Below are positions 20,439 to 36,736 of a stretch of 64,000 nucleotides of DNA, one piece after another. Each line of letters opens with the position of its first letter. The stretch's first letter is position 1. The notes beneath the pieces were generated by a model. It had not been told where the DNA came from. It searched no databases and was given only the letters and a program-made list of their open reading frames with translations. Origin of the DNA: Halostella salina (lineage in GTDB: Archaea > Halobacteriota > Halobacteria > Halobacteriales > Natronoarchaeaceae). The stretch covers positions 1-64,000 of the forward strand of contig NZ_RCIH01000012.1 in assembly GCF_003675855.1 (NCBI RefSeq). The letters are read 5' to 3'. Made by a program: the position numbers and the translations under genes.

Positions 20439-20748
20439 AATAGTGCAAAAGTATTACGCTGGGTCACAGCGGCCATCGTCATCGGACGACTCAGCTATCG
20501 GTGAAATCGAGACGTTCTCCAAATCAAATTAGTAACAGTTCGATTCTACTGAAGATAGGCGTGATATCACGCACCCGTTTTGGCAGTGGTTGAAGGGTTC
20601 AGACAGCCCCTCCAGTGGCAGTCTTAACCAACAGAAGCCGGGATTGGTGGACTGTGTTGGTTAACGTGAACCAGAACAGTGGTTGAGTGAGTTCATGGGC
20701 CACCACAACATATCACGATATACCCGGCCGACAGGCGATCACACCATT
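20439..20748. other. Intergenic region between the MNT gene and CRISPR array 1
   Basis: No gene is seen. A perfect 10-bp inverted repeat, TTAACCAACA (20624-20633) and TGTTGGTTAA (20655-20664), could be a terminator for the leftward array transcript or an old element end. No further repeat copy is recognisable left of 20749. Confidence 0.4.
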
Positions 20749-23700
20749 TTTCAATGCCGTCTGGGCTTTTCTGGCTGCTGCGACACACCGCCGAAAACAG
20801 CGCCCACGCAGGATCCCAGTTTCGATGCCTATTGGGCTTTGCTGCCTTCTGTGACCACGAGCGGGATGCCTTCGGGAATCTCGCGTGTGCTGTTTCAATG
20901 CCTTTTGGGCTTTGCTGGCTTCTAAGACGGGGACATCGGACTGGCAGCTCCTCGATCTCGACATGTTTCAATGCCGTAGTGGCTTTGCTGAGTCCTGAGA
21001 CCGCTGGCGGCGACGGCCGGAGCGACTACAGCCAACTGTTTCAATGCCGTAGTGGCTTTGCTGGCTTCTGCGATATCATACCCCGGGCACCGGAGTGTCA
21101 TCTCCGTCTCGTTTCAATGCCTTTTGGGCTTTGCTGGCTTCTGCGGCGCGCTAACATCCGACCCTGATACCCGGGGTTCTTGTTTCAATTCCTAATGGGC
21201 TTTACTGGCTTCTGCGACCGCGGGTTCGAACCAGTCGGGCGACCCGCACTTGGGAGTTTCAATGCCTTTTGGGCTTTGCTGGCTTCTGCGACATTCTCAG
21301 GCTGTGCATCCCGGTTGAAGATTTCGTTTCAATGCCGTCTGGGCTTTGCTGGCTTCTGCGACAGCGGCCAGAAGAACCAGCCGGCCGTGCCGAGGATCGG
21401 TTTCAATGCCGTTTGGGCTTTGCTGGCTTCTGCGACGCGAGGGGGCTGAAGGTCTTGCCTTTGCAGGCCATGTTGTTTCAATGCCGTTTGGGCTTTGCTG
21501 GCTTCTGCGACTTGCCGCAACGATGTTTAGACGGTTCAGAGCCGCCGTGTTTCAATGCCGTCTCGGCTTTTCTGGCTTCTGCGACCTATCACGAAAGCAG
21601 TACGTGCCGGCGGTTGCATAAGTTTCAATGCCGTCTCGGCTTTTCTGGCTTCTGCGACATGATCTGGGCGGCCATCAAAGGCGGGGCGTCGTGGCAGTTT
21701 CAATGCCGTCTCGGCTTTTCTGGCTTCTGCGACGCTGGGACAGCGCAGACTGCGGTATATACGCAGCATGTTTCAATGCCGTCTCGGCTTTTCTGGCTTC
21801 TGCGACCTACACCGACGTGTTCGACGAGGCGATCCCCGACGAGTTTCAATGCCGTCTCGGCTTTTCTGGCTTCTGCGACCGCGCTCGGGAGAAACTCCCC
21901 GGGCTGGTGCGCCAAGTTTCAATGCCGTCTCGGCTTTTCTGGCTTCTGCGACCACTCCCCGTCGTGGGGGTGGTGGGTGTCGCAAGTCGTTTCAATGCCG
22001 TCTCGGCTTTTCTGGCTTCTGCGACTCGTCGAGATCGAGGCCGTGGACAGCCCCGAGCCGGGGTTTCAATGCCGTCTCGGCTTTTCTGGCTTCTGCGACC
22101 CGCGGGCGTGCCGGCCGTCGCCATATGCACGCCGCGTTTCAATGCCGTCTCGGCTTTTCTGGCTTCTGCGACGTAGGCGCGCCGGAGGTATTTTTCGGCA
22201 TACGAGTTTCAATGCCGTCTCGGCTTTTCTGGCTTCTGCGACGTCGGACCTGAATACGGACCCGTGGCAAATGTACGAGTTTCAATGCCGTCTCGGCTTT
22301 TCTGGCTTCTGCGACCCGCCAGCCATGCGGGGATGATGTCGATGGTGGAGTTTCAATGCCGTCTCGGCTTTTTTGGCTTCTGCGACACGTACACGTCGGT
22401 GCCGTCGCCCCGCGGGAAGATGAAGTTTCAATGCCGTCTCGGCTTTTCTGGCTTCTGCGACCGTCCTCCGGCCACGCGTCCACGTTCCAGTCGACATAGT
22501 TTCAATGCCGTCTCGGCTTTTCTGGCTTCTGCGACATGGCTCGTCGAGACCAACGCCGACGGCGCGACCGTGTTTCAATGCCGTCTCGGCTTTTCTGGCT
22601 TCTGCGACTTGGCGCTGTCGGGGTCGCCGATCGCGCCGTCGCCGTCGTTTCAATGCCGTCTCGGCTTTTCTGGCTTCTGCGACCGGGCGTCATCTGGGCT
22701 TTCTGGGCGTGGTTCTTGTTTCAATGCCGTCTCGGCTTTTCTGGCTTCTGCGACCCTGTACGACGGCAGCGACGGGTGGTATATGGAACAGTTTCAATGC
22801 CGTCTCGGCTTTTCTGGCTTCTGCGACTGAACGCCCCGGCAGGGAGCCGGGACGGTTCGAGCGGTTTCAATGCCGTCTCGGCTTTTCTGGCTTCTGCGAC
22901 AACATCCGCCAGCTGGTTAACGCTCGGGCAATCGAGTTTCAATGCCGTCTCGGCTTTTCTGGCTTCTGCGACGCGCCGCGACGCTCGCCCGGAGCGCGCC
23001 CGATGCGGTGTTTCAATGCCGTCTCGGCTTTTCTGGCTTCTGCGACCGCCGCCACCGCCGCCGTACAGTCCACCACCACCGCCGGTTTCAATGCCGTCTC
23101 GGCTTTTCTGGCTTCTGCGACCGTGCTATCTCGGCCGGATCCCCGCCGCCGTTGTCCGTTTCAATGCCGTCTCGGCTTTTCTGGCTTCTGCGACATTGGC
23201 ATGGACGAGTCAGTGGACATGCCGCAGCTGGGTTTCAATGCCGTCTCGGCTTTTCTGGCTTCTGCGACCAGCGACCCCAGAGACAATCAGGAGAACGGAA
23301 CCGTTTCAATGCCGTCTCGGCTTTTCTGGCTTCTGCGACGATTGCGAACTCATAGTGCTCTCACTCTCTCGGGAGGTTTCAATGCCGTCTCGGCTTTTCT
23401 GGCTTCTGCGACTCAGTTCTTCTTCGTCAGTCATGGGCTTGATTGATTGTTTCAATGCCGTCTCGGCTTTTCTGGCTTCTGCGACCTGGACCTCTCCGAC
23501 ATCGAAGACTGACGACTCCGGCTGTTTCAATGCCGTCTCGGCTTTTCTGGCTTCTGCGACGTGGCGTTACGTGTCCGCGTGGGACGATCGTTCATACAGT
23601 TTCAATGCCGTCTCGGCTTTTCTGGCTTCTGCGACGTCCCAGACCATGCACGCCCCGCTTTTCACCGCCGTTTCAATGCCGTCTCGGCTTTTCTGGCTTC

Positions 23701-24657
23701 TGCGACCATTTCGGTCGGTCCGTCGTAGCTCTGACTCATGTTTGTTTCAATGCCGTCTCGGCTTTTCTGGCTTCTGCGACGGATACCTCGTCGGTCGGTT
23801 GGCCGCCGTCCGTCATGTTTCAATGCCGTCTCGGCTTTTCTGGCTTCTGCGACCTCTGGGTCCACCTGTTCCCGCAGTACAGCGACGGGTTTCAATGCCG
23901 TCTCGGCTTTTCTGGCTTCTGCGACGAGCCTGCGTGCGCCATCCAGAGCGACGCCAACCTGTTTCAATGCCGTCTCGGCTTTTCTGGCTTCTGCGACGCG
24001 TCAGTATTCGCACTGTGGATATTCGCCACACGAACCGTTTCAATGCCGTCTCGGCTTTTCTGGCTTCTGCGACCTGGAAGACCTCCCGATCGGCCTCAAT
24101 GCCGAACTGTGTTTCAATGCCGTCTCGGCTTTTCTGGCTTCTGCGACTGGACGGTCCGCTTGAGGTCCCCGGATTCGATCGTCTGTTTCAATGCCGTCTC
24201 GGCTTTTCTGGCTTCTGCGACTCACGCTCCCGTCGCGTCCCCGCACCTCAAGCGTGTCGTTTCAATGCCGTCTCGGCTTTTCTGGCTTCTGCGACGCGCG
24301 AGATACACACACGCGCCGCGTCGCGTGGTTTCAATGCCGTCTCGGCTTTTCTGGCTTCTGCGACGGTTGACGTGTCCGATCCCGCCGAAGATGGTGACTT
24401 GTTTCAATGCCGTCTCGGCTTTTCTGGCTTCTGCGACGTAATACGTCGTGGGACGGCTTCGACGACGTGGTACAGTTTCAATGCCGTCTCGGCTTTTCTG
24501 GCTTCTGCGACCTGCCGTTTTGTCGACGAGCCGATGCCGGACTGTTTGTTTCAATGCCGTCTCGGCTTTTCTGGCTTCTGCGACGCTGCAGGACTACCCG
24601 GAGCTGGCGCACAAAAGCGTGTTTCAATGCCGTCTCGGCTTTTCTGGCTTCTGCGAC
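20749..24657 (-). CRISPR. CRISPR array 1, 54 repeats of 37 bases, transcribed leftward
   Basis: I count 54 repeat units and 53 spacers of about 33-39 bases. On the plus strand the main repeat begins GTTTCAATGCCGTCTCGGC and ends GGCTTCTGCGAC. The crRNA strand is minus, because the complement ends in ATTGAAAC, the usual 8-base archaeal handle left by Cas6. Units from 21549 to 24621 are nearly identical (one T-for-C change at 22350). The first eleven units (20749, 20820, 20892, 20965, 21038, 21111, 21182, 21256, 21326, 21400, 21475) are diverged, as expected at the leader-distal end. The leader lies at 24658-24785. Confidence 0.98.
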
Positions 24658-24785
24658 AGGGGGTGAAAATCACGGGATAGAGGCAATAAAGCTTGTTACT
24701 GGCTTGGCTCAGTACCCACGTTTCGTCGACCGGGGCTGTACAGAGATACTAAAAAGGTCCACGAAGACTGGCCGGGCTGGGACGA
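24658..24785 (-). promoter_or_regulatory. Leader of CRISPR array 1
   Basis: Read on the minus strand, this segment contains CCTTTTTAGTATCTCTGTAC, then CCCCGGTCGACGAA, then GTAACAAGCTTTATTGCC and GTGATTTTCACCCCC directly before the first repeat. The same blocks in the same order occur before array 2. The leader separates csa3 from the array, and its T-rich block is a plausible TATA region. It marks the spacer-acquisition end. Confidence 0.85.
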
Positions 24786-25433
24786 TTATTCCACTTGCTG
24801 TAGCAATAGCTCACCGGTGAGCGTCAGCTCTACGAGCTTGGTCTTCCCGGTATGTTCGGTGTCGACGGCATCAACCACGGCCAACTGGTCGACGTGTCGC
24901 CCAACAGTGCTCTTGGCCACTGAACTCTCATCTGCCAACTCGGAAATCGAAACAGGCTGGTCAACAGTTGCGAGAAGGCGCAACGTTTCCAGCGATTTCT
25001 CCGGTGGACTTGCCGTGATATTCGGTAGCGACCACTCCTCGAACGAGCGATCCAGGTCGCTGAAAAAGAGGACTGTATCGACACAGTCCCGGTGAACCAG
25101 CGTTGCGATGGTCAACGGAAGGAGCACATCGCGGGCTCCGCCACCAAGATTGACGATAACGGTACCTTCGGCAGCCTGAATGAGATCACAGCAGGCCAGA
25201 ATACTATTCTCGATACTACTCACTGGAACGTCTTCCTGCAGAAACGAGACGGAAGGTTCGATCGTATTGACGAACTGTTCGACGCCAGTGAGTGCTTCCG
25301 ACGCACGCTCATTGTCCGTGCTCTCTGCTGGCCGAACCACGATGACCTCGTCTCCTTCGTCGATCCCGTGTTTCAGGATCGGTCGTGTCACCCGGGCTTC
25401 GTCGAAGCCAAGCGTTGAGAGGTACGTCCGCAT
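24786..25433 (-). CDS. csa3: Csa3-type CRISPR transcriptional regulator (CARF + winged helix)
   Basis: From ATG 25433 the protein (215 aa) begins MRTYLSTLGFDEARVTRPILKHGIDEGDEVIVVRP, the CARF-type start of Csa3 proteins. It continues with the ligand-fold segment IVNLGGGARDVLLPL. The C-terminal winged helix is VSISELADESSVAKSTVGRHVDQL. An upstream in-frame ATG at 25487 is less likely, because a TATA-like GGTATTATTC lies about 33 bases before 25433. Csa3 regulators sense cyclic oligoadenylate-like ligands or remain unliganded and control adaptation or interference genes. It points leftward, straight into the array 1 leader, and is divergent from the cas operon. Confidence 0.88.
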   Translation of the reverse strand: MRTYLSTLGFDEARVTRPILKHGIDEGDEVIVVRPAESTDNERASEALTGVEQFVNTIEPSVSFLQEDVPVSSIENSILACCDLIQAAEGTVIVNLGGGARDVLLPLTIATLVHRDCVDTVLFFSDLDRSFEEWSLPNITASPPEKSLETLRLLATVDQPVSISELADESSVAKSTVGRHVDQLAVVDAVDTEHTGKTKLVELTLTGELLLQQVE

Positions 25434-25614
25434 TGCTGATCTGTGCCGTCCCCACAGGAATAATACCACCGTTGCATCTGACTGCAACTACTGCGCCCGA
25501 ATGCGACTATTGTCGTATCATGTCAATCAGTCATTTGATTTATTATCCCATCCGCTCAAGCAATCCGATAGGGCCAGCATCACCGCATGATCACCACCAG
25601 CAAACTCAATTGAG
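25434..25614. promoter_or_regulatory. Divergent csa3/cas6 promoter region with a short palindrome
   Basis: The region holds CGAC-TATT-GTCG (25504-25515), an inverted repeat between the two divergent genes and a candidate Csa3 operator. GATTTATTATCCC (~25537-25550) is the best TATA candidate for the rightward cas operon, which would leave a leader of about 40-50 bases. Evidence is by pattern and position only. Confidence 0.4.
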
Positions 25615-26448
25615 ATGCGCCATATCACAGTCACCGTCCGCCCGACTACACGGTTTCCGGTACCGATCTCGGATGGATACAGTGTCTACAGTTCACTCCT
25701 CTCGGCACTGGACGCAGTCGACGAATCCGTCAGCGAACACATTCACGACTCACCGCTCGGAAGCCTGCACTGCAGCGGTCTGCTGGGTGTGTTCGGGGAC
25801 AGTGACCGGTCCTATCACAAATCGGTCCGACCGAACCAGAGTTACGAGCTAACTCTTGGGGTCGTGGACCCACAGGATCAGGAGATATTCCAGACGCTCG
25901 TGCAAGCGCTCGTGCTGGAGGGCGACGAACTCGAATTGACGAACGGAACGCTTCACGTCGAAAGCTTCGAGAGTGAGAACACAACTCGGCAGGAAATTCT
26001 GAAGGAGGCTAACGGGTACGACGACCCAGCCATCGAGATCAACTTCCGGACTGCAACCTGCATTGAGGAGGCAGGTGAGGTAACAACCATGTTCCCCTAC
26101 CGGGTTGCAGTGTTCAACAGCCTCCTTGGAAAATGGAATCAGAGTGCTTCCGAGGAAGTGGAACTCGATATCGGGCGTGAATCTCTCGCTGCTGGCGTTA
26201 TCGAGAAGCCCGATGAACGCTCGTACGATACTCATAGTGTCCTGGTGAATCGCGTAAAGAACGAGAAGGGAGAAAATCGGAATCGGTTCAAACAGGGTTT
26301 TTCCGGCCGTTGTGCGTATGAATTCAAGGATGCTAGTGACTCAGTGGAAAACGCGGTAACTGCTCTAGCGATGTTTGGGGAGTATTCGGGAGTAGGGAGT
26401 GCCGTTGCACGAGGCTGTGGAAACATCATTGTGGAGGTGACATCATAA
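25615..26448 (+). CDS. cas6: Cas6 CRISPR RNA endonuclease
   Basis: The 277-residue protein begins RHITVTVRPTTRFPVPISDGYSVYSSLLSAL, the first RRM strand of Cas6. It ends with the glycine-rich loop GEYSGVGSAVARGCGNI near the C-terminus that contacts the repeat RNA. It would cut each repeat to leave the ATTGAAAC handle seen in both arrays. Its TAA overlaps the next ATG by one base (TAATG), starting a fully coupled cas operon. Confidence 0.93.
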   Translation: MRHITVTVRPTTRFPVPISDGYSVYSSLLSALDAVDESVSEHIHDSPLGSLHCSGLLGVFGDSDRSYHKSVRPNQSYELTLGVVDPQDQEIFQTLVQALVLEGDELELTNGTLHVESFESENTTRQEILKEANGYDDPAIEINFRTATCIEEAGEVTTMFPYRVAVFNSLLGKWNQSASEEVELDIGRESLAAGVIEKPDERSYDTHSVLVNRVKNEKGENRNRFKQGFSGRCAYEFKDASDSVENAVTALAMFGEYSGVGSAVARGCGNIIVEVTS

Positions 26449-28865
26449 TGAACCCAAAAGCTGCTCAAATGGCACACAGCTGGCTCGTAGAGCAAGAGGA
26501 TTTGTACACTAACGTAATCGATCACGCTGGTGCGTACGATGCGAAGGTTGATTCCTCAGCCAACTCATCGCTGGCGGCCCATATCCTTAATGCGGTAACG
26601 GTTGGTGTCAATACGTTCGTCTATAACGCTGTTCGGTCCGATGAAGACGTTACAGAGTATGAGGAGGAGATTCGGGTTCTTGCGGCCGCTCTCGCGCTAC
26701 ACGATACGAACAAGTACGTTCGAGAAGCCTACGGGTTTGACGCCGACGGAAACACTGCAGATGCCTTCGACTACTATTTCGACCCCGAAGATGGTGAGGG
26801 CGATGATTTCGGGATTGAGGAATTCCTAGGTGATGGATATCGTGATGATCTTCATTATCTTGTTCAGCGGACCGAAGTCCGTGAAGACACGCGAGAGACA
26901 CGGGCGACTGATACAGAGTTCCGTGGATTAGAGCGATACTGTCGGATCGGCGACCAGATCGCTTCGGTTGCATTGCGAGGTGGAATTACCGAGGTGGCTG
27001 AGAAGCTTGCTACCTATTTCGGTGATGAGGTTCACTATATCGAATTCACGGAGTTAGAACAGCCGGTGTTGAACGACTTGCTCATCAGTACGGTGAAAGA
27101 GGTTATAGCTGGAGAGGGTAACTTTGAGACGAAGGGTGTTATAATAGGGAGTACACCGGATGGTGTACTTTATCTTGGTAACTCAATTGAGCGGGAAAAA
27201 CTCCAGAAGCTGACTTTAAATCGCCTTCCAGAAAGAATCCAAGATGAGTTCACATTTTCCTGTAAGCTTGGATGGAACAAATTCGACTACGATATATTAG
27301 CTGAGATAGAGATCCCGATTGGTAGGAAAAAGGATAGGATTCGGGAACAGGCAACTGAACTAATCAAATCGGATGCTGGTGGAACTGAGCCTTTTGAGTT
27401 AATCCCAAATGAATTTACTGAATATCTACCGGTACTAATAAAAGCGATATATGAAGATAACCGGAAGGAATATCCTACGGAGGACTTGACAGAAGCCTAT
27501 GAATCTGTTTACCATTCCATCGAGGGTGGAAAAAGCACGAAGGGTCAAAAAGTAAAGATAAAACTACTAAAATACCTATGTAAAAATTTTGACGAATATA
27601 GAGATGATCTTCGGTCTCTACAGGCAGAAATTGGAGAGGAACTTGATGGAGATCTGACGCCAGAGACAGATGCAACAGGCGATATCATAGAGCGGTTTTT
27701 CTCTATTACAACGAAATTAAGTCTTGCACCGAAAGATAGAATGTGTTTCCTATGTGGAGCAGAAGCTGATACAAAGTACCAGAAAGGATATGGTATATAC
27801 CAGACACAAGGGTATTCTCGGCGTGTCTCTCCACATTCCAAATATAAAACAATTTGTGGTGTATGTAACTTAGAATATGCCCTATTTTCACATGTTTGTG
27901 GAGAACATGACATTAATACGAGTGAATCTTTAGAGACGGCATATTTCTATTTCAGCGACTTCCTTGGGGATGTTCGAGTTAGAAGACGCCGAATTGGAAA
28001 TGTTGTCCATGGTGATGCCAACGAACTTGATGACACAAAGGTAACTACGGGCCTCGTTAGTTCACAGTATTTTATTCAACCAATATTCATAAGGGGGGAG
28101 AACCACCGGATGGCAGTCATCCGGCAGGTGATGCAGGCTGCCCAGGATGCCGGGATGAAGGTGGTCGTGGGACGACCGTTCACGCGCTTCGAGAGCGCGG
28201 ATGCGGTCTTCACGGACGAGGAGGCCACCCGACCGCAAGAACTCCTCGGGCTGGATGAAGCGGAACGCTTCGGGCCGCTCCCCGACTTCGTTTCGGAGGA
28301 TCGGACCGATTCCCATCTCCGCCGCTCGCTCCAGCTGTTCAAAATCATGAGTATGGTTGGACAGGAGGCCAACATGTCCAATCCATACATCCAACTCGAC
28401 AGGGACACGTTCCACAGTATCGCCGACTTCGCAGTCGTCAATCACGAACACGCAACCCGACTCTCGGACCTCCGGGAGTACTTCGAAACGTACCATCAAG
28501 ATGCACTTATGGAAATGAGAACCATTGCCGAACGAGGGATCGACCTGTTCGGCAAGCAGTTCGACAGCAAGTACAAGAAAACGAAAGTCTTCCGCGAGGC
28601 TATCGACGCGTTCCTCAGCGGAAAGAATCAGCGGATGGAGGATGACGAACTCATCGAGTACGTTGAGAGTCAGGTGTATGCCGTTGCTGAACGTGAGGAT
28701 TACGCCGGCTACGTCGAAACTGGTGAAGCAGAGGCGTTCGTCGAAGCGATACACACCTATCTGGTGGAGAACGACCTTGACGACCTCAAGAAACTCTCGG
28801 ACTGGGAAGACGCACTGGTGAACTCGTACTACTACGCCTACGACCAAGCACTTCAGGACCAATAA
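26448..28865 (+). CDS. cas10d: Cas10d (Csc3), large subunit of type I-D Cascade with HD nuclease domain
   Basis: The 805-residue protein starts with an HD-nuclease-like domain: H45 in AAHILNA and H85-D86 in ALALHDTNKY. A zinc finger follows mid-protein (C433xxC436 ... C470xxC473). The HD domain on the large subunit, together with a Cas3 that lacks one, is the hallmark of type I-D. A strong Shine-Dalgarno GGAGGTGA (26433-26440) precedes the start. Roughly 27100-28090 is conspicuously AT-rich with different codon use, and composition snaps back to GC-rich near 28095, so the gene looks mosaic. Csh1/Cas8b was considered, but the neighbours are Csc2 and Csc1. Confidence 0.87.
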   Translation: MNPKAAQMAHSWLVEQEDLYTNVIDHAGAYDAKVDSSANSSLAAHILNAVTVGVNTFVYNAVRSDEDVTEYEEEIRVLAAALALHDTNKYVREAYGFDADGNTADAFDYYFDPEDGEGDDFGIEEFLGDGYRDDLHYLVQRTEVREDTRETRATDTEFRGLERYCRIGDQIASVALRGGITEVAEKLATYFGDEVHYIEFTELEQPVLNDLLISTVKEVIAGEGNFETKGVIIGSTPDGVLYLGNSIEREKLQKLTLNRLPERIQDEFTFSCKLGWNKFDYDILAEIEIPIGRKKDRIREQATELIKSDAGGTEPFELIPNEFTEYLPVLIKAIYEDNRKEYPTEDLTEAYESVYHSIEGGKSTKGQKVKIKLLKYLCKNFDEYRDDLRSLQAEIGEELDGDLTPETDATGDIIERFFSITTKLSLAPKDRMCFLCGAEADTKYQKGYGIYQTQGYSRRVSPHSKYKTICGVCNLEYALFSHVCGEHDINTSESLETAYFYFSDFLGDVRVRRRRIGNVVHGDANELDDTKVTTGLVSSQYFIQPIFIRGENHRMAVIRQVMQAAQDAGMKVVVGRPFTRFESADAVFTDEEATRPQELLGLDEAERFGPLPDFVSEDRTDSHLRRSLQLFKIMSMVGQEANMSNPYIQLDRDTFHSIADFAVVNHEHATRLSDLREYFETYHQDALMEMRTIAERGIDLFGKQFDSKYKKTKVFREAIDAFLSGKNQRMEDDELIEYVESQVYAVAEREDYAGYVETGEAEAFVEAIHTYLVENDLDDLKKLSDWEDALVNSYYYAYDQALQDQ

Positions 28866-29815
28866 TGACACTCGAATACCCCGACAAAGGCCTCGTCGAA
28901 TCGCACAGCATCTACAGGAAACGAAAGCCGACGGTGACGTTGATCGTCAAGCGGGACGTGACTGAACCGACGCTGTTCCGGAACTCCAACCACGACCGCG
29001 CCGAAACGCAGGAGTTCGGTGACAAACTCCACGCTCAGGTCAACGGTGAGAAATTCACCAGCAAAGAGCGCCTCACTGGACTCGACTTGCTTCGGCGGCT
29101 GGACGACGATGGAACGCTCATTGATGACGAATATACGTACAACGAACCAGATGACTTGGCGGATTCCCTGAACGTTGGGACGCTCACCTACGGTCTCGCG
29201 GGGACCGGGGACCAGGATTTCGCCATCAAATCCCGGGTCGTGGAGGGCTACACCTATACGACCGACGAATACGACCTGATGAACAAGGAAACCCGGAACG
29301 CTGTGTATGAAACCGGGACCATGCAAGATAACGAAGGCGAACAGTCACAGGCACTGTTCGACTTTGTGAAGGTCCAGCCAGGAAACGACCTCGTGCATTT
29401 CATCACGCTGGAGGCAGCCACAGGGCCAATGTTGCTCTACACGCTCCACAATATCCTGAATACCGGAAAGTATGGGGCACGAGAGACCCGAACGGGTCGG
29501 AATGTCCGCAACGATGTCCTTGGTGTCATTCTCGGGGATCACGATACGTCCCTTTCGACCGGCGAACTGCTAATGGAGTATCACAGTGACGACGATGATT
29601 TGGTCGAAAGCCTCAGTGAGTACATTCAGGGGGTTCGCCGTGAGGACTGGGACGTGTACGGGGAGTTCGAGGGTGCCGAAGCTGCCCCGAACTGGCTTGA
29701 TGACCTGCTGAGCGTGGCTGCCCGTGAAGCCGATGACGCAGATGAGATCATGAAAGAAGAGTTCGGTCGCCTAATGACGGAGGCTCGGGAGAACTTCGAA
29801 CTGACCGATGAATGA
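28865..29815 (+). CDS. csc2: Csc2 (Cas7 of type I-D), crRNA backbone subunit
   Basis: The 316-residue protein carries the Csc2-like start VESHSIYRKRKPTVTLIVKRDVTEPTLFRN and the motif TLHNILNTGKYGARETRTGRNVRN. The latter resembles the conserved glycine/arginine region of Cas7 proteins that grip the crRNA. Several copies would form the Cascade backbone. It starts in a TAATG overlap with cas10d and overlaps csc1 by 8 bases. Confidence 0.87.
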   Translation: MTLEYPDKGLVESHSIYRKRKPTVTLIVKRDVTEPTLFRNSNHDRAETQEFGDKLHAQVNGEKFTSKERLTGLDLLRRLDDDGTLIDDEYTYNEPDDLADSLNVGTLTYGLAGTGDQDFAIKSRVVEGYTYTTDEYDLMNKETRNAVYETGTMQDNEGEQSQALFDFVKVQPGNDLVHFITLEAATGPMLLYTLHNILNTGKYGARETRTGRNVRNDVLGVILGDHDTSLSTGELLMEYHSDDDDLVESLSEYIQGVRREDWDVYGEFEGAEAAPNWLDDLLSVAAREADDADEIMKEEFGRLMTEARENFELTDE

Positions 29816-30509
29816 ACAGACGTTCGAGGCGACGCTCTACGCGCCCCTCTTCTACTCTAGCTCAGAGGGGCGGGCAATTCGAACCCAACCAACGCTGTCA
29901 GCGACTGCACTAATGCACGCACTTGGGTACCGCTACTTCGATATGGAAAAGCGGTACGCCGAATTCGGGGAACACGCTACTACACCTGATTATTCACATC
30001 TTCGGGATGCGTCGTTTTTCGTCTCGGACATGCGTCCGGTGGCAGTCGAAACTGATGAGCGAACGTTCCGGAGTACAGACTACCGATCCGAACGGAACTT
30101 CACCACGAACGATACTGATCTGGCCAGACAGATTTCTGGTGACAAATCGATTCCGTCGATACTGGAGGACTCCGGAGCGGCCTATCAGACGATCCGCAAC
30201 TACCTCGGTGTCTCACCGGGATCTACGTTTGAATTCACTATCTGGAGTGAGCAACCCATCCCCGACCGGCCCTTCTTCAGGATGGGTATCAAACAGACCG
30301 GTGAATTCCGAGCAGAGGAATCATCACAAAACTCCATTATCCTGAACAAGTACCTGCTCTCGGAGGTGTATGATGTCAGTGAGGAACTGCTCACGGAGCT
30401 GATGGAACACTGTGATTCGTTCAAGCGGGGCAATGATCCGAGACTGCAACATTTTGTCGGTTCAGATCCGGAGTTCGTTCGCGATCGGATTATCCCGGAG
30501 GTGGTCTGA
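29808..30509 (+). CDS. csc1: Csc1 (Cas5 of type I-D), crRNA 5'-handle subunit
   Basis: The 233-residue protein begins with the beta-strand FEATLYAPLFYSSSEGRAIRTQPTLSATALMHALGYRYF, matching the Csc1 pattern in which the chain enters a RAMP fold and reaches a conserved aliphatic-aromatic helix. It lies between Csc2 and Cas3' as expected. Its TGA overlaps the next ATG (TGATG at 30507-30511). Confidence 0.83.
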   Translation: MNEQTFEATLYAPLFYSSSEGRAIRTQPTLSATALMHALGYRYFDMEKRYAEFGEHATTPDYSHLRDASFFVSDMRPVAVETDERTFRSTDYRSERNFTTNDTDLARQISGDKSIPSILEDSGAAYQTIRNYLGVSPGSTFEFTIWSEQPIPDRPFFRMGIKQTGEFRAEESSQNSIILNKYLLSEVYDVSEELLTELMEHCDSFKRGNDPRLQHFVGSDPEFVRDRIIPEVV

Positions 30510-32398
30510 TGGACCAATTCGCAGTTTCTGGTGCCAGCCTTGCGACGGAAGAGCCCAAATACGGACTGACAGACAGTGACTTCCCTGAGGCACGTGCATT
30601 TCAGAATGATGTCGTAGAGTGGGTGCATGACGGTGATGCTCCGGTTGCTGCACTTCGTGCCCCGACTGGGGCAGGTAAAACTGCTACCTTCCACGAACTC
30701 ATAGAGAACCACGATCCTACCCTTCTGGTCTATCCAACGAATGCGCTACTTCGTCAACAGCGTAATCGGTTCACCGACGCTGGTGTCGATGCAGCAGTGT
30801 TGAACGGGTCAACACTGGAAGGCCATGGTCACATGCGGACCGAAAACCTGCTTGATTACGTCAATACATTTGCCAGCGACAACGAAGTGGTTCTGACCAA
30901 CCCTGACATCCTCCAGGCTACGATTCAGGACATGTACCGTGGAGGCCAGGCCATGCGGTTCTTCAACTGGTTTGATGCGATCGTCTACGATGAATTCCAC
31001 TTCTATGATCCGCTTGCTGCCAGTGGGTTACTCCTACAGATCAAAATCATTTCAGAACGAAGCCCGGACCCACACATTCTACTCGCATCCGCGACTCCGA
31101 ATGAGGATTTCGTGGACTTCGTTCGGACTCAGCTTCAACTGGATGTCGAGGACATCGAAGCCGAATACGTATCGAACGGCGATCAGTTTCGGTATCCAGT
31201 AGACGTTTACCGGCATGAGGAACGACGGATCATGGACGACAGGGAAACCGTTGCTCAACTTCTGCAGGATGAAATTGAAGCTGCGGACCAGTATGAGGAA
31301 CCTCGTGTCGTGCTCACATTCAATAGTGCCAAAGACAGTAACGACTTTCATGAGTTCCTAGCTGACGAGTACGAGTCAGTATACAAACACGCCGAAAAGG
31401 ACAATGGATTCGACACGCACGACGAACGCGTTGACCTTGATGAAACAGATTTCTACATCCTGAATACCACCTCCAAGGGTGAGGTTGGTCTTGATTACGA
31501 TGTGCGGACCCTGATAATGGATACGCCCCATAGCGCGAGTGCGTTCATCCAGCGATTCGGGCGTGCTGGTCGGGCGTCGGAAGCCTCCGTCCACGTCTAT
31601 GGCTTGGGTCAGAATATTTGTGACTCGGATACTGCGTTCCCTGATTTTGTCGACCAAATCTACACTGGGCTACGAGAGGACCGGATGGAGACCCAGGCAC
31701 TTGCAGACTTGGTCGGGTTTCGAGGTGCATACGGGATCAAAACCCGAGAGGAGAATTACGGAGGCCTGAACCCCGAGATATACGAGGATCTTGCATCCAA
31801 TGTCGAAGAGTACGGCCGCTGGCGGCGGTTCATTGAGGACATTGAAACTGAACTTGACGCCCTGCGTGGACTCGGTGGGAAGGTACCGAATGGAGAGCGA
31901 GAATCGCTCTTGGAATTCACAAAGGAGTGTTTCAAAACCTTTAGAGGGCTTCGCGGTCGGTCGCTAAAAGCCCAGATCGAATACCCTCGCGGAGATCGGA
32001 TCGGACTGACAACGTATGACCTCTCCCGAACGCTTCGTGGATACGAGATTGAGGCTGTTCGTGACGATAGCGTCTTTGCCGTTGAACCTGCTGATGAGAA
32101 CTCTCTCTCCGTCGTAACGGCACGGCTACCGGCCTACGAAACGGAACCGACCAGATACGACGAACCAACGACTGCGATCGAAGACACGCTACAGGAAAAG
32201 ATCCACCGTCGGATCGATCGCACTTGTCAGGACAACGATTGTGAAGTCTCCATGGATCTCATGCATAGGTTCTTCCAGATCGTCCGGATCACGGAGGCGA
32301 TCATCCCTCAGCGGATCACGACGGCGACACACGAGATTGAAGTTGACGACAACGGGGATGGACCACCAGATATCAACGCAAACCGTCGGCAAGTATGA
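30509..32398 (+). CDS. cas3: Cas3' helicase of type I-D (no HD domain)
   Basis: The 629-residue superfamily-2 helicase has Walker A APTGAGKT (residues 51-58), the DExH box YDEFHF, motif III LASATPNE and motif VI FIQRFGRAGRAS. No HD nuclease domain is present at either end, because in type I-D the nuclease resides on Cas10d. A Shine-Dalgarno GGAGGTGG (30497-30504) precedes the ATG. It ends in an ATGA overlap with cas4. Confidence 0.92.
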   Translation: MDQFAVSGASLATEEPKYGLTDSDFPEARAFQNDVVEWVHDGDAPVAALRAPTGAGKTATFHELIENHDPTLLVYPTNALLRQQRNRFTDAGVDAAVLNGSTLEGHGHMRTENLLDYVNTFASDNEVVLTNPDILQATIQDMYRGGQAMRFFNWFDAIVYDEFHFYDPLAASGLLLQIKIISERSPDPHILLASATPNEDFVDFVRTQLQLDVEDIEAEYVSNGDQFRYPVDVYRHEERRIMDDRETVAQLLQDEIEAADQYEEPRVVLTFNSAKDSNDFHEFLADEYESVYKHAEKDNGFDTHDERVDLDETDFYILNTTSKGEVGLDYDVRTLIMDTPHSASAFIQRFGRAGRASEASVHVYGLGQNICDSDTAFPDFVDQIYTGLREDRMETQALADLVGFRGAYGIKTREENYGGLNPEIYEDLASNVEEYGRWRRFIEDIETELDALRGLGGKVPNGERESLLEFTKECFKTFRGLRGRSLKAQIEYPRGDRIGLTTYDLSRTLRGYEIEAVRDDSVFAVEPADENSLSVVTARLPAYETEPTRYDEPTTAIEDTLQEKIHRRIDRTCQDNDCEVSMDLMHRFFQIVRITEAIIPQRITTATHEIEVDDNGDGPPDINANRRQV

Positions 32399-32994
32399 GT
32401 TCCGAGCTAATCAACGTCTCCGACCTCAACCAGTACGCGTACTGTCCGCGACGGTACTGGTATCTTCACTTCTACGATACGCAAGGTCGAAATTACGAAC
32501 GTATCGAGGGGAAGACGACCCACGAAAACAAATCGACGCGTGGAGACTGGGTGAATGAACTCTACTTGGAGTCGGAGCAACTGGGGCTGAAAGGCAAAAT
32601 CGATGTGCTCGATATCGATGACGCACAGCCTGTTCCGGTTGAGCGGAAGCGAGCCGAGAGCGGCGAGTATTACAGGAGCGATGAACTACAGCTTGCTGGC
32701 TACTGTCTTCTACTTGAAGAGCATATTGACGAACCAGTTCGAGAGGGGGCGATCTACCTATACGAGACCGACCAGCGAATGCATGTTCCGATCACCGAAG
32801 ACCATCGTGAGACCGTTCGCCAGCAGGTGAACGCTATCCAGGCGATGTCTATCGATTCGATCCCGTCACTAACCGATAACCCGAAGAAGTGCGAGGCGTG
32901 CTCCACCCGTGAGTACTGTATGCCCGAGGAAACGGTGATGCTCGAACCGGAGCAAGCTGAAGGAACCGGATTTGAGGAGGTGATCTCGGAATGA
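32395..32994 (+). CDS. cas4: Cas4 iron-sulfur exonuclease
   Basis: The 199-residue protein has one cluster cysteine near the N-terminus (AYCPRRYWYL) and three at the C-terminus (CEACSTREYC). Between them are the PD-(D/E)xK nuclease residues (GKIDVLD, VERKR) and a QLAGY-type motif III. Cas4 trims prespacers and selects the PAM-side end during adaptation. The genes cas4-cas1 overlap as ATGA (32991-32994). Confidence 0.95.
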   Translation: MSSELINVSDLNQYAYCPRRYWYLHFYDTQGRNYERIEGKTTHENKSTRGDWVNELYLESEQLGLKGKIDVLDIDDAQPVPVERKRAESGEYYRSDELQLAGYCLLLEEHIDEPVREGAIYLYETDQRMHVPITEDHRETVRQQVNAIQAMSIDSIPSLTDNPKKCEACSTREYCMPEETVMLEPEQAEGTGFEEVISE

Positions 32995-33986
32995 AGGCTG
33001 CTGAAGGAATGTTCGACGAATCGGTTGTATTCGTCACCAAACAGGGGACACAGGTACGGACTGACGGCGGCCGGATCGTCGTATGGGACGTAGATGGGGA
33101 TGACGGTGAACTCGCAAGCTACCCGACCGAAAAACTCGATACGATCAATGTGTTCGGTGGCGTAAATTTCAGTACCCCGTTCGTCGCTGAGGCAAACGAA
33201 CACGGGATCGTTCTCAACTACTTCACACAGAACGGACAGTACCGTGGCAGTTTCGTTCCTGAACGAAACACGATCGCCGAAGTTCGCCGGGCACAGTATG
33301 CGCTCTCGGAGCAAGACGAACTCGAGATAGCTAAAGCAATGATCGCAGGAAAGATCCGGAATGCCCGGACGCTGTTATCCCGAAAAGGTGTACACGGAAC
33401 GGACGTATTGAAAGATCTCGGAGTCCGGGCAGAAAACGCGAGTAGTAAAGATGACCTGCGTGGAACGGAGGGAGAAGCTGCTGAACGATACTTCGATCGT
33501 CTGGACGAGACACTCACGGACGGCTGGACCTTCGAAAAGCGCACGAAGCGACCGCCAGAGGATCACATCAACTCACTACTCTCGCTGACTTACGTGATGG
33601 TCAAGAACGAGGTTCTGAGCGGCTTGCGACAGTACAATCTTGATCCGTTTCTGGGGGTTCTGCATGCCGATCGGCACGGCCGGCCGTCCCTTGCACTTGA
33701 TCTCCAAGAGGAGTTCCGACCGCTATTCTGTGATTCACTCGTAACGAGATTGGTCAACCGCGGTGTGATCACCCACGACGATTTTACAGCGGATAATCAC
33801 CTTGCAGATGACCCATTCAAAACGTACCTTTCGAAGTTCGACGAGTACATGCAGGAAGAGTTCGTGCATCCGCACTTCGACTACTCCGTGTCTCGACGGA
33901 AGGCAATCCGGCAGCAGGTGATCCTACTCCGAAAAGCGATAACAGACGAGATGGATAGCTACCACGCGCTTACTTTCAGCCGATAA
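32991..33986 (+). CDS. cas1: Cas1 integrase
   Basis: The 331-residue protein has the conserved C-terminal helical active site: VKNEV, GLRQYNLDPFLGVLHADRHG and SLALDLQEEFRP, which hold the metal-binding Glu, His and acidic residues. A perfect Shine-Dalgarno GGAGGTGATC at 32976-32985, five bases before ATG 32991, decides this start over the in-frame ATG at 33009. It works with Cas2 and Cas4 and presumably serves both arrays, whose leaders are homologous. Confidence 0.96.
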   Translation: MKAAEGMFDESVVFVTKQGTQVRTDGGRIVVWDVDGDDGELASYPTEKLDTINVFGGVNFSTPFVAEANEHGIVLNYFTQNGQYRGSFVPERNTIAEVRRAQYALSEQDELEIAKAMIAGKIRNARTLLSRKGVHGTDVLKDLGVRAENASSKDDLRGTEGEAAERYFDRLDETLTDGWTFEKRTKRPPEDHINSLLSLTYVMVKNEVLSGLRQYNLDPFLGVLHADRHGRPSLALDLQEEFRPLFCDSLVTRLVNRGVITHDDFTADNHLADDPFKTYLSKFDEYMQEEFVHPHFDYSVSRRKAIRQQVILLRKAITDEMDSYHALTFSR

Positions 33987-33987
33987 C

Positions 33988-34260
33988 ATGCGTCTCGCCA
34001 TTGCCTACGACATCAGTGACGATTCGAATCGACGACGAGTGTATCGAACTCTTCAGCGATACGGTGCCTGGAAACAGTATAGTGTTTTCGAGCTAGATGT
34101 CTCCAAAACTGACCGTGTAGAGCTAGAGGACGAACTCAAGAGTCACATCGACCCAACCGACGGAGATAGAATCCGAATCTACCGTCTCTGTGAGTCCTGT
34201 GTAGACGACACTACGGACATTGGTGCCTCTCAACCAGATGAACAGTCGAACGTGATCTGA
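33988..34260 (+). CDS. cas2: Cas2
   Basis: The 90-residue protein has the ferredoxin-like start MRLAIAYDISDDSNRRRVYRTLQRYGAWKQYSVFEL with the conserved Asp after strand 1 and the typical RIYRLCESC ending. It starts one base after the cas1 stop and closes the cas operon, immediately before the leader of array 2. Confidence 0.96.
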   Translation: MRLAIAYDISDDSNRRRVYRTLQRYGAWKQYSVFELDVSKTDRVELEDELKSHIDPTDGDRIRIYRLCESCVDDTTDIGASQPDEQSNVI

Positions 34261-34376
34261 AGACCTCCTTCGTCGACCTTTTTAGTATCTCTGTACGGCC
34301 CCGGTCGACGAAGAGTTACCCTTGAGCGAGTCACGTAACAAGCTTTATTGCCTCTATGGCGTGATTTTCACCCCCT
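34261..34376 (+). promoter_or_regulatory. Leader of CRISPR array 2
   Basis: Between cas2 and the first repeat lie ACCTTTTTAGTATCTCTGTAC, CCCCGGTCGACGAA, GTAACAAGCTTTATTGCCTC and GTGATTTTCACCCCC. They occur in the same order as in the array 1 leader read on the opposite strand. The distal repeats are at the other end, so new spacers enter here. GAAGACCTCCTTCGTCGACC just after cas2 is a weak extra block. Confidence 0.85.
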
Positions 34377-36221
34377 GTCGCAGGAGTCAGCAAAGCCACT
34401 ACGGCATTGAAACTCGTCGGCGGTCTCACTCATCGCTACCACCCAGCGTCGCAGGAGTCAGCAAAGCCACTACGGCATTGAAACAGCATCGCCTCGGGCA
34501 TCCCCCCAGTCCACCGGTTGGTCGCAGGAGTCAGCAAAGCCACTACGGCATTGAAACACAGCGACACCGGGCTACGAGGCGTTTGAGAGCGTCGCAGGAG
34601 TCAGCAAAGCCACTACGGCATTGAAACCGGGCGGCGGCCCCGTCCCACGGCATCAGCGGCCCCGTCGCAGGAGTCAGCAAAGCCACTACGGCATTGAAAC
34701 GAGGACCTCGTCGTCGCGAGCGTCGCCGGGCTCGAGGTCGCAGGAGTCAGCAAAGCCACTACGGCATTGAAACTCCATCGGACCCGCGAAAGTCGGTCGG
34801 ATACCGTTTGTCGCAGGAGTCAGCAAAGCCACTACGGCATTGAAACTATTAACATGGGAGTGCTCGACTGGCCCGAGAAGGTCGCAGGAGTCAGCAAAGC
34901 CACTACGGCATTGAAACAACCCGGCGGGCGACTACAACTTTCGCGGTGCGGCGTCGCAGGAGTCAGCAAAGCCACTACGGCATTGAAACGGAACTGTCGA
35001 TCCGCGGCAGCGACAGCGCCACCCGTCGCAGGAGTCAGCAAAGCCACTACGGCATTGAAACGGTTGCATATCGCCAGCATTCGGTCGTTGCCGTCCGGTC
35101 GCAGGAGTCAGCAAAGCCACTACGGCATTGAAACTCGTAAGCCCGGGGAGAGCAACCCCGTAAACACGGTAGTCGCAGGAGTCAGCAAAGCCACTACGGC
35201 ATTGAAACCGCCATGGATCACCCTCAATCGCGGTACGGGAGTGGTCGCAGGAGTCAGCAAAGCCACTACGGCATTGAAACCCCGCTCGATGACTGCGAGA
35301 AGCATTCGGATTCGAGTCGCAGGAGTCAGCAAAGCCACTACGGCATTGAAACTGGGTCGGACGCGAGACGGACGACGGCCGTTCGCGTCGCAGGAGTCAG
35401 CAAAGCCACTACGGCATTGAAACAGGTAGTCGTAGCAGACCTTCACGGCGTGCTGACGGCGTCGCAGGAGTCAGCAAAGCCACTACGGCATTGAAACCGG
35501 GCAACACCTCGGGCCGGCCTTCCACGTCTTCTTGTCGCAGGAGTCAGCAAAGCCACTACGGCATTGAAACTCTAGGAGTTGATCCTCGTCTAGAAACACT
35601 CATCCGTCGCAGGAGTCAGCAAAGCCACTACGGCATTGAAACTAGTCGTGGGGCCGGTTCTGGTTGACCGGCGGGACGTCGCAGGAGTCAGCAAAGCCAC
35701 TACGGCATTGAAACGATTCGATTCGTGCGCCAGTCGAAGATTGTGGCGTTGTCGCAGGAGTCAGCAAAGCCACTACGGCATTGAAACACGGACACGGCGG
35801 TCGTCAGCGTTGACGGCGCGGCGTGTCGCAGGAGTCAGCAAAGCCACTACGGCATTGAAACTAGGTTGTCTTAGGCATCGTTCTGAAGTTGCTGGTAGTG
35901 TCGCAGGAGTCAGCAAAGCCACTACGGCATTGAAACTTTCGAGTTTTGTCGCTGTTATCAACTGAGTGGTTTGTCGCAGGAGTCAGCAAAGCCACTACGG
36001 CATTGAAACTCGAAACGCCTCGTATCCCCGACCCGGAGGCCCGTCGCAGGAGTCAGCAAAGCCACTACGGCATTGAAACATTGTCGTCTCGCCGGGCATG
36101 ACCGTCTCCTGCTGTCGCAGGAGTCAGCAAAGCCACTACGGCATTGAAACCGGAGTATATCGCCCCCCAGCAAGGCGGAAAGACGTCGCAGGAGTCAGCA
36201 AAGCCACTACGGCATTGAAAA
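34377..36221 (+). CRISPR. CRISPR array 2, 26 repeats of 37 bases, transcribed rightward
   Basis: I count 26 repeats with 25 spacers of about 34-37 bases. The repeat begins GTCGCAGGAGTCAGCAAAGC and ends CTACGGCATTGAAAC. It differs from the array 1 repeat (same strand sense) at 6 of 37 positions. All units look identical except the last (36185-36221), which ends GAAAA. A partial unit-like GTCGCAGGCTGCAG at about 36244 may be a decayed remnant. The leader is at 34261-34376. Both arrays thus point away from the cas genes. Confidence 0.98.
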
Positions 36222-36444
36222 CCTCCAGCAGACAGTCACTTGCTGTCGCAGGCTGCAGCACCGGGAGATGGTAGTGATAGTCGATAAGCTTGTCTTGGAC
36301 TAGTTGACCCTTTGTTCTCACATTCGCACCTGGTTAGTGGCTGGGATCGTTCCGGATTACCGGAGATATGTGAACTCAACAATGAGACAATTCCGCTATC
36401 TTCAGAATGAGATAGAATAGATATTTTCTGGTTGGGGATGTCTC

Positions 36445-36736
36445 AGTACCACTTGCTGGGAATTCGCCTGGAACTGGGAGAGTGTACCTTCTCGCTGTTC
36501 ACTAGCATTCTCCAAACCCACAAAGGTACGCTGGAACGTTTTCCTGTAACCACTCACGCTTTCCATCAGCAGTGCTTCAAACGCTCAAAGGTTCGTCTGG
36601 AACCGTTCAGATGGCGGCGATAATCCTCGTCACGCACCTCGTTTCAAACCCACATGGGTGCATCTGGAAATTGTGGGGGGAGTTCCCGCCGACGATGGAG
36701 TTCAAGTTTCAAACCCACATGGGTGCATCTGGAAAC
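36445..36736 (-). CRISPR. Relict mini-array with a different haloarchaeal CRISPR repeat
   Basis: Five degenerate units recur every 63-67 bases. Their shared CTGGAA cores start near 36468, 36531, 36597, 36664 and 36729. The two best units (from 36641 and 36706) share GTTTCAAACCCACATGGGTG followed by CATCTGGAAA. A third, GCTTCAAACGCTCAAAGGTT followed by CGTCTGGAAC, resembles the complement of the widespread ~30-base haloarchaeal repeat that ends in GGGTTTGAAGC/GAAAC. Sense is therefore probably minus. Unit divergence and lack of nearby matching cas genes indicate a dead array. Confidence 0.75.

Follow-up and report, generated by a model that had tools for sequence, protein, structure and literature searches.

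The 64,000-nucleotide stretch of Halostella salina DNA analysed here (hereafter the window) contains one complete haloarchaeal type I-D CRISPR-Cas locus, in which two divergent arrays are placed around a csa3-cas6...cas2 gene set. The csa3 gene, coding for a CARF-HTH regulator, lies on the minus strand (24786-25487), while the cas operon on the plus strand (25615-34260) comprises cas6, a cas10d-like gene (26448-28865), cas7/csc2, cas5/csc1, cas3', cas4, cas1 (32991-33986) and cas2. All the components by which type I-D is recognized are present, namely Csc2 (Cas7), Csc1 (Cas5), Cas10d/Csc3 and the Cas3' helicase, together with the adaptation genes cas4-cas1-cas2 and cas6. In profile searches Csc2 (84.5 bits, cut-off 38) and cas3_cyano (108.7, cut-off 69.1) both pass; Csc1 (25.4) and Csc3 (19.9) score under their cut-offs, yet occupy the correct places in the gene order, and the best profile for cas1 is cas1_CYANO, at 382.3 against a cut-off of 385. 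Homologues of these genes in other haloarchaea carry I-D annotation. An assignment of the system to type I-B was ruled out, since the profile searches give I-D.

Array 1 (20748-24657) consists of 54 repeats of 37 nt, with the crRNA sense on the minus strand and the leader at 24658-24770 (minus strand), and array 2 (34377-36221, plus strand), with its leader at 34270-34376 (plus strand), has 26. The leaders adjoin the cas genes and the arrays point outward, forming inverted repeats about 10 kb apart. The 80 repeats represent 14 distinct sequences, and no further arrays with related repeats were found in the genome. In crRNA sense the modern repeat of array 1 reads GTCGCAGAAGCCAGAAAAGCCGAGACGGCATTGAAAC and that of array 2 GTCGCAGGAGTCAGCAAAGCCACTACGGCATTGAAAC; the two are discriminated by six sites, at positions 8, 11, 15 and 22-24. 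In array 2, 25 repeats are identical and the terminal one has its last base changed. In array 1, the 43 modern repeats (21549-24657, minus strand), which the first-pass annotation had called uniform, include 42 identical copies and one unit, at 22350, with a single substitution. That annotation was right in setting apart the eleven leader-distal units (20748-21511, minus strand) from the younger 43: the motifs it quoted all occur at the places it gave, and the extent of the old end is as it described, except that the first unit starts at 20748 and not at 20749.

The background type of this old end is a repeat with a CAAAA loop, common to units 2, 3, 6, 7 and 8, of which units 2 and 7 carry further changes, while unit 3 (20892-20928, minus strand) and unit 6 (21111-21147, minus strand) flank a tract of array-2 type. 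Unit 9 has a CAGAC loop and units 10-11 have CAAAC; the variants in units 3, 6, 8 and 9-11 are as originally reported, and the units left undescribed at that stage were 1, 2 and 7. Unit 1, the oldest (20748-20784, minus strand), combines a CAGAC loop with A15 and, with three mismatches, is closer to the modern array-1 repeat than units 2-8. The tract between units 3 and 6 consists of two repeats that had already been singled out, one as showing the array-2 pattern and the other as a joint of the two types, and both descriptions hold. Unit 4 (20965-21001, minus strand; GTCTCAGGACTCAGCAAAGCCACTACGGCATTGAAAC in crRNA sense) has the array-2 allele at 6/6 discriminating sites and only two other substitutions, which amounts to two mismatches to array 2 versus eight to the modern array-1 repeat. 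Unit 5 (21038-21074, minus strand) is a chimera, array-1-like in its 5' half and array-2-like in its 3' half (crRNA sense): positions 8 and 11 carry the array-1 allele and positions 15 and 22-24 that of array 2, and the unit has three mismatches to array 2 versus five to array 1. The switch point falls within crRNA positions 11-22, i.e. window 21053-21064.

Leader-distal repeats are known to degenerate, old units gaining unit-specific mutations, and part of the variety seen here is decay after insertion, because the unit-specific alleles within the old block occur in units 1-7 only and the younger units are near-uniform (one change in the 43 younger units of array 1 and one in the 26 of array 2). 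The GCC/GGC stem is kept in ten of the eleven old units and the ATTGAAAC handle in nine, hence most old spacers may still be processed. However, decay does not account for alleles shared with the partner array, nor for a chimeric unit.

We propose instead, with a probability of roughly 0.7, that homologous recombination between the two inverted arrays of this I-D locus turned the old end of array 1 into a mosaic, overlaid by ordinary repeat decay. Read from the leader, the repeat type switches inside unit 5, continues through unit 4 and has reverted to that of old array 1 no later than position 8 of unit 3; this is the pattern that one crossover, or a short conversion tract with its ends in repeats, would give. 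The junction itself is a chimeric repeat, and the donor-type unit beside it lies on the expected side, unit 4 following the array-2-like half of unit 5 in the leader-distal direction. The resemblance of units 4 and 5 to array 2 exceeds chance, because BLAST searches in both directions pair the unit 5-unit 4 segment with array 2: against 392 haloarchaeal genomes, same-genome array-2 unit pairs rank first (best E 3e-25), the next-ranked matches being arrays of Halorussus-group genomes (G068 is Halorussus pelagicus), and in the reverse search from array 2 the segment 20965-21073 ranks among array 2's own units (E 2e-19). What speaks against the exchange is that unit 4 departs from array 2 at its two additional sites. 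A shared spacer or a reciprocal product, which is expected for a recent exchange and can be lost, was not found in the window, and no spacer is common to arrays 1 and 2, either exactly or nearly; both signs are present in a relative (L083, see below). A search for array-1 protospacers in phage and plasmid collections returned matches to other arrays and weak hits attributable to chance, and nothing else.

The event in the window could have taken either of two forms, and both fit. A single crossover in unit 5 would join the leader side of array 1 to an older arm of array 2 and, with the two arrays inverted on a single molecule, would also flip the cas cassette of about 10 kb; alternatively, a gene-conversion tract of about 80-140 bp would copy a "half repeat-spacer-repeat" module from array 2. 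The T at position 4 common to units 3 and 4 slightly favours one continuous arm. Later, spacers would have been added at both leaders, each copying the first repeat of its own array, so burying the exchanged units at the old end, and the matching old end of array 2 would subsequently have been lost. That the latter, the place of the reciprocal product, seems to be lost is suggested by the uniformity of array 2 and by its termination in a changed repeat and a possible truncated one: the putative 5' end of a repeat at 36245-36260 (plus strand), past the last unit, matches array 2 at 13/16 positions and is consistent with loss of older units. None of the 26 repeats of array 2 is of array-1 type, therefore reciprocity cannot be seen in the window. 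Among the sampled loci no relative with the same flanks and the opposite cas orientation was found, the flank matches being unrelated or duplicate only, and a comparison within the genus found no orthologous old end in four other genomes. Just past array 2, at 36509-36735, there are four degenerate 30-nt repeats (36509, 36574, 36641 and 36706; spacing 65-67), which we take to resemble the common haloarchaeal I-B repeat and which are probably the relic of a second CRISPR type.

The leaders provide an independent sign of exchange. Those of the window are 84% identical to each other over 110 nt, as compared with 72% and 76% to their best positional counterparts elsewhere, which points to homogenisation. 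The partner leader is closer than the positional counterparts also in L068, L083, L103, L104 and L094; L087, L093 and L129 are among the loci that keep distinct positional leaders. This comparison rests on pairwise identities, the tree of the 170-nt leaders being shallow.

Similar traces recur among relatives. Cas1 searches and the regions fetched with them yielded 33 non-duplicate two-array I-D loci (30 and three plasmid loci), and in six of these (L070, L080, L083, L087, L105, L131) leader-distal units of one array are identical to the repeat of the partner array. Across 30 loci, the repeat of the partner array is matched exactly by 7 of 81 variant types, versus a mean of 0.14 and a maximum of 3 in 2000 partner permutations, a test that includes no model of relatedness between the two arrays of one locus, so that only the reciprocal loci escape this objection; a variant type equals the repeat of any other locus in 1/81 cases (30 loci). 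L083 and L087 are exactly reciprocal, and L105 is exact on one side with a match of the 5' half on the other. In L083, array 1 has 30 own, 5 partner-type and 1 truncated unit, and array 2 has 41 own and 8 partner-type units; the single spacer shared between its arrays lies in array 2 between the last own-type and the first partner-type unit, and in array 1 one unit inside the partner-type block, a placement that fits an exchange in which the arrays were offset by one unit. When inverted arrays lie on one molecule, a reciprocal crossover between them inverts the intervening segment, here the leaders and cas genes, therefore the reciprocal loci imply that the cassette would have been inverted, unless two separate conversions occurred.

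Exchange may also operate on blocks smaller than a repeat. In 10 of the 26 loci with at least three differences, the differences between the paired repeats are confined either to the 5' third or to the 3' half, versus 3.7 expected (P about 0.001, a value that assumes independent sites and is indicative only), which suggests that repeats are exchanged in blocks; unit 5 of the window directly shows block exchange within a repeat.

The surveyed loci have other features that we record in their own right. In array 2 of L084 the 14 leader-proximal repeats differ from the older ones throughout the 5' third but agree with them in the 3' half, as if half a repeat had been replaced as a block, and in array 2 of L077 a block of about nine spacers occurs twice (positions 1-9 and 26-35), as a large duplication within the array. 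The closest relative, L068 (cas1 92%), uses the ACTAC-loop repeat in array 1 and the one with the GAGA loop in array 2, opposite to the window, as if the arrays had changed sides relative to cas. Whole loci are also found in more than one place: genome G275 has two copies of one I-D locus, L096 and L097, which carry the same arrays and are separated by about 61 kb, and L130 and L131 are full I-D loci on each of two plasmids of one strain, Halarchaeum sp. CBA1220, with identical array-2 and different array-1 repeats. L087 and L110 represent the same locus, and their flanks are 100% identical; both lie on 316-kb plasmids, one from Halostella pelagica (CP040680) and the other from Salinibaculum litoreum (CP046867). 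These hosts belong to different families, and either the plasmid moved recently or one of the records is mixed.

The resemblance between the two arrays could also be due to shared ancestry, if both had descended from one array with an ACTAC loop and C15 and the old end of array 1 had retained the ancestral repeat. Indeed, C15 is common to array 2 and to units 2-6 and 8-11, with A15 in modern array 1 and likewise in the closest relatives L068, L070, L073 and L074; moreover, the ACTAC loop is found in either array position among relatives (array 1 of L068, array 2 of L073 and L074), and the one-sided relatives L070, L080 and L131 can be read in the same way. The earlier suggestion that array 1 was formerly nearer to array 2 finds support at this one site, position 15, and at no other. 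On the other hand, the CAAAA type flanks the ACTAC pair on both sides, so the loop would need to appear and then disappear, and the array-2-specific 8G with 11T and C15 are never found together in the main repeats of the surveyed relatives. Reciprocal types do not follow from shared ancestry alone, because each of the two arrays would then have to predate the other and also postdate it. We therefore regard this explanation as improbable.

It seems very unlikely that units 4-5 were imported through recombination with an I-D locus that had arrived from another, perhaps Halorussus-like, haloarchaeon. In favour of an import, genomes of the Halorussus group hold the closest foreign arrays, I-D loci do sit on plasmids, and only 1 nt separates the modern array-1 repeat from the array-2 repeat of G082, so that some types may pass from one lineage to another. 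However, unit 4 is nearer to its own array 2 (two mismatches) than to any foreign array (at least four). Unit 5, with three mismatches to array 2, is nearer to array 1 of L068 (two), therefore unit 5 alone is not decisive on its origin.

An equally slender chance is left to stepwise mutation, in which mutations accumulated in the repeat next to the array-1 leader, each new state was passed on with the spacers added next, and position in the array reflects the sequence of changes; the first-pass annotation had read the old units as such a series leading to the present repeat. Single steps separate several of the types (CAAAA to CAAAC to CAGAC), and relatives such as L095 and L106 show comparable gradients. 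Nevertheless, with unit-specific mutations set aside, the age-ordered path takes 30 changes, with gains followed by full reversals, versus 15 on a minimum spanning tree of the same repeat types. The excess comes from the array-2 loop, gained and wholly lost between units 3 and 6, from the order of unit 9 versus units 10-11, and from the place of unit 1. Unit 9 is older than units 10-11 yet nearer to the modern repeat than they are, and the oldest unit is nearer to it than units 2-8, therefore the series is not age-ordered; the order of the changes does not agree with distance from the leader, and after unit 11 the modern repeats begin abruptly, with three changes at once. An assembly artefact is scarcely credible, even in a draft genome of 17 contigs, as the spacers are all distinct, the units follow one another at regular intervals (70-75 nt) and comparable patterns are present in complete genomes and plasmids (L087, L105).

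Thus far, the evidence gives good support to recombination between the arrays, which the first-pass annotation had raised as an option and to which the chimeric unit, the homogenised leaders and the independent exchanges in relatives all point; such recombination recurs in the family, and the reading of the old end as a time series is not supported. It is tempting to go further and to consider the paired inverted arrays of haloarchaeal I-D loci as an inverted-repeat switch, in which recurrent crossovers flip the cas cassette of about 10 kb, although we hold this extension only tentatively and rate it below even odds. A crossover in the repeats would swap the old arms or, alternatively, the leaders would be exchanged together with first-repeat modules. 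If true, such a switch would account for old ends that are reciprocal, for leaders that are homogenised and for the frequency with which paired repeats differ in one half only.

CRISPR arrays are commonly read as time-ordered records. If the old ends of paired arrays were regularly swapped, position would not be equivalent to age across such a junction, old spacers would pass between arrays that differ in leader and repeat, and chimeric units would let repeats change in blocks. Junctions between repeat types would constitute a simple and testable marker of exchange events.

The closest published parallel is that of Haloquadratum walsbyi C23, in which crispr-2 and crispr-3 flank one cas set, as the arrays do here, and share one identical spacer and one repeat (PMC3119063). 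In the accessible text of that account, however, the cas set is not assigned to I-D, no mosaic old end is described and no exchange is proposed (PMC3119063). In the openly accessible literature searched we found no reports of reciprocal swapping of old ends between paired inverted arrays. The SpacerPlacer study describes rearrangements as rare and cites earlier work according to which recombination between arrays is rare as well (PMC11472070). Known array recombination resembles the present case in that exchange at repeats alters array content; here, in contrast, the traces lie in repeat types, concern the paired inverted arrays of one locus, are found in six of 33 loci and are in some of them reciprocal. 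In Thermotogales, CRISPR-bounded chromosomal inversions have reportedly been observed, and there, as here, crossover between inverted arrays inverts the intervening DNA. However, the segments involved in Thermotogales are large chromosomal ones, whereas in the haloarchaeal I-D loci it is the cas cassette itself that would invert.
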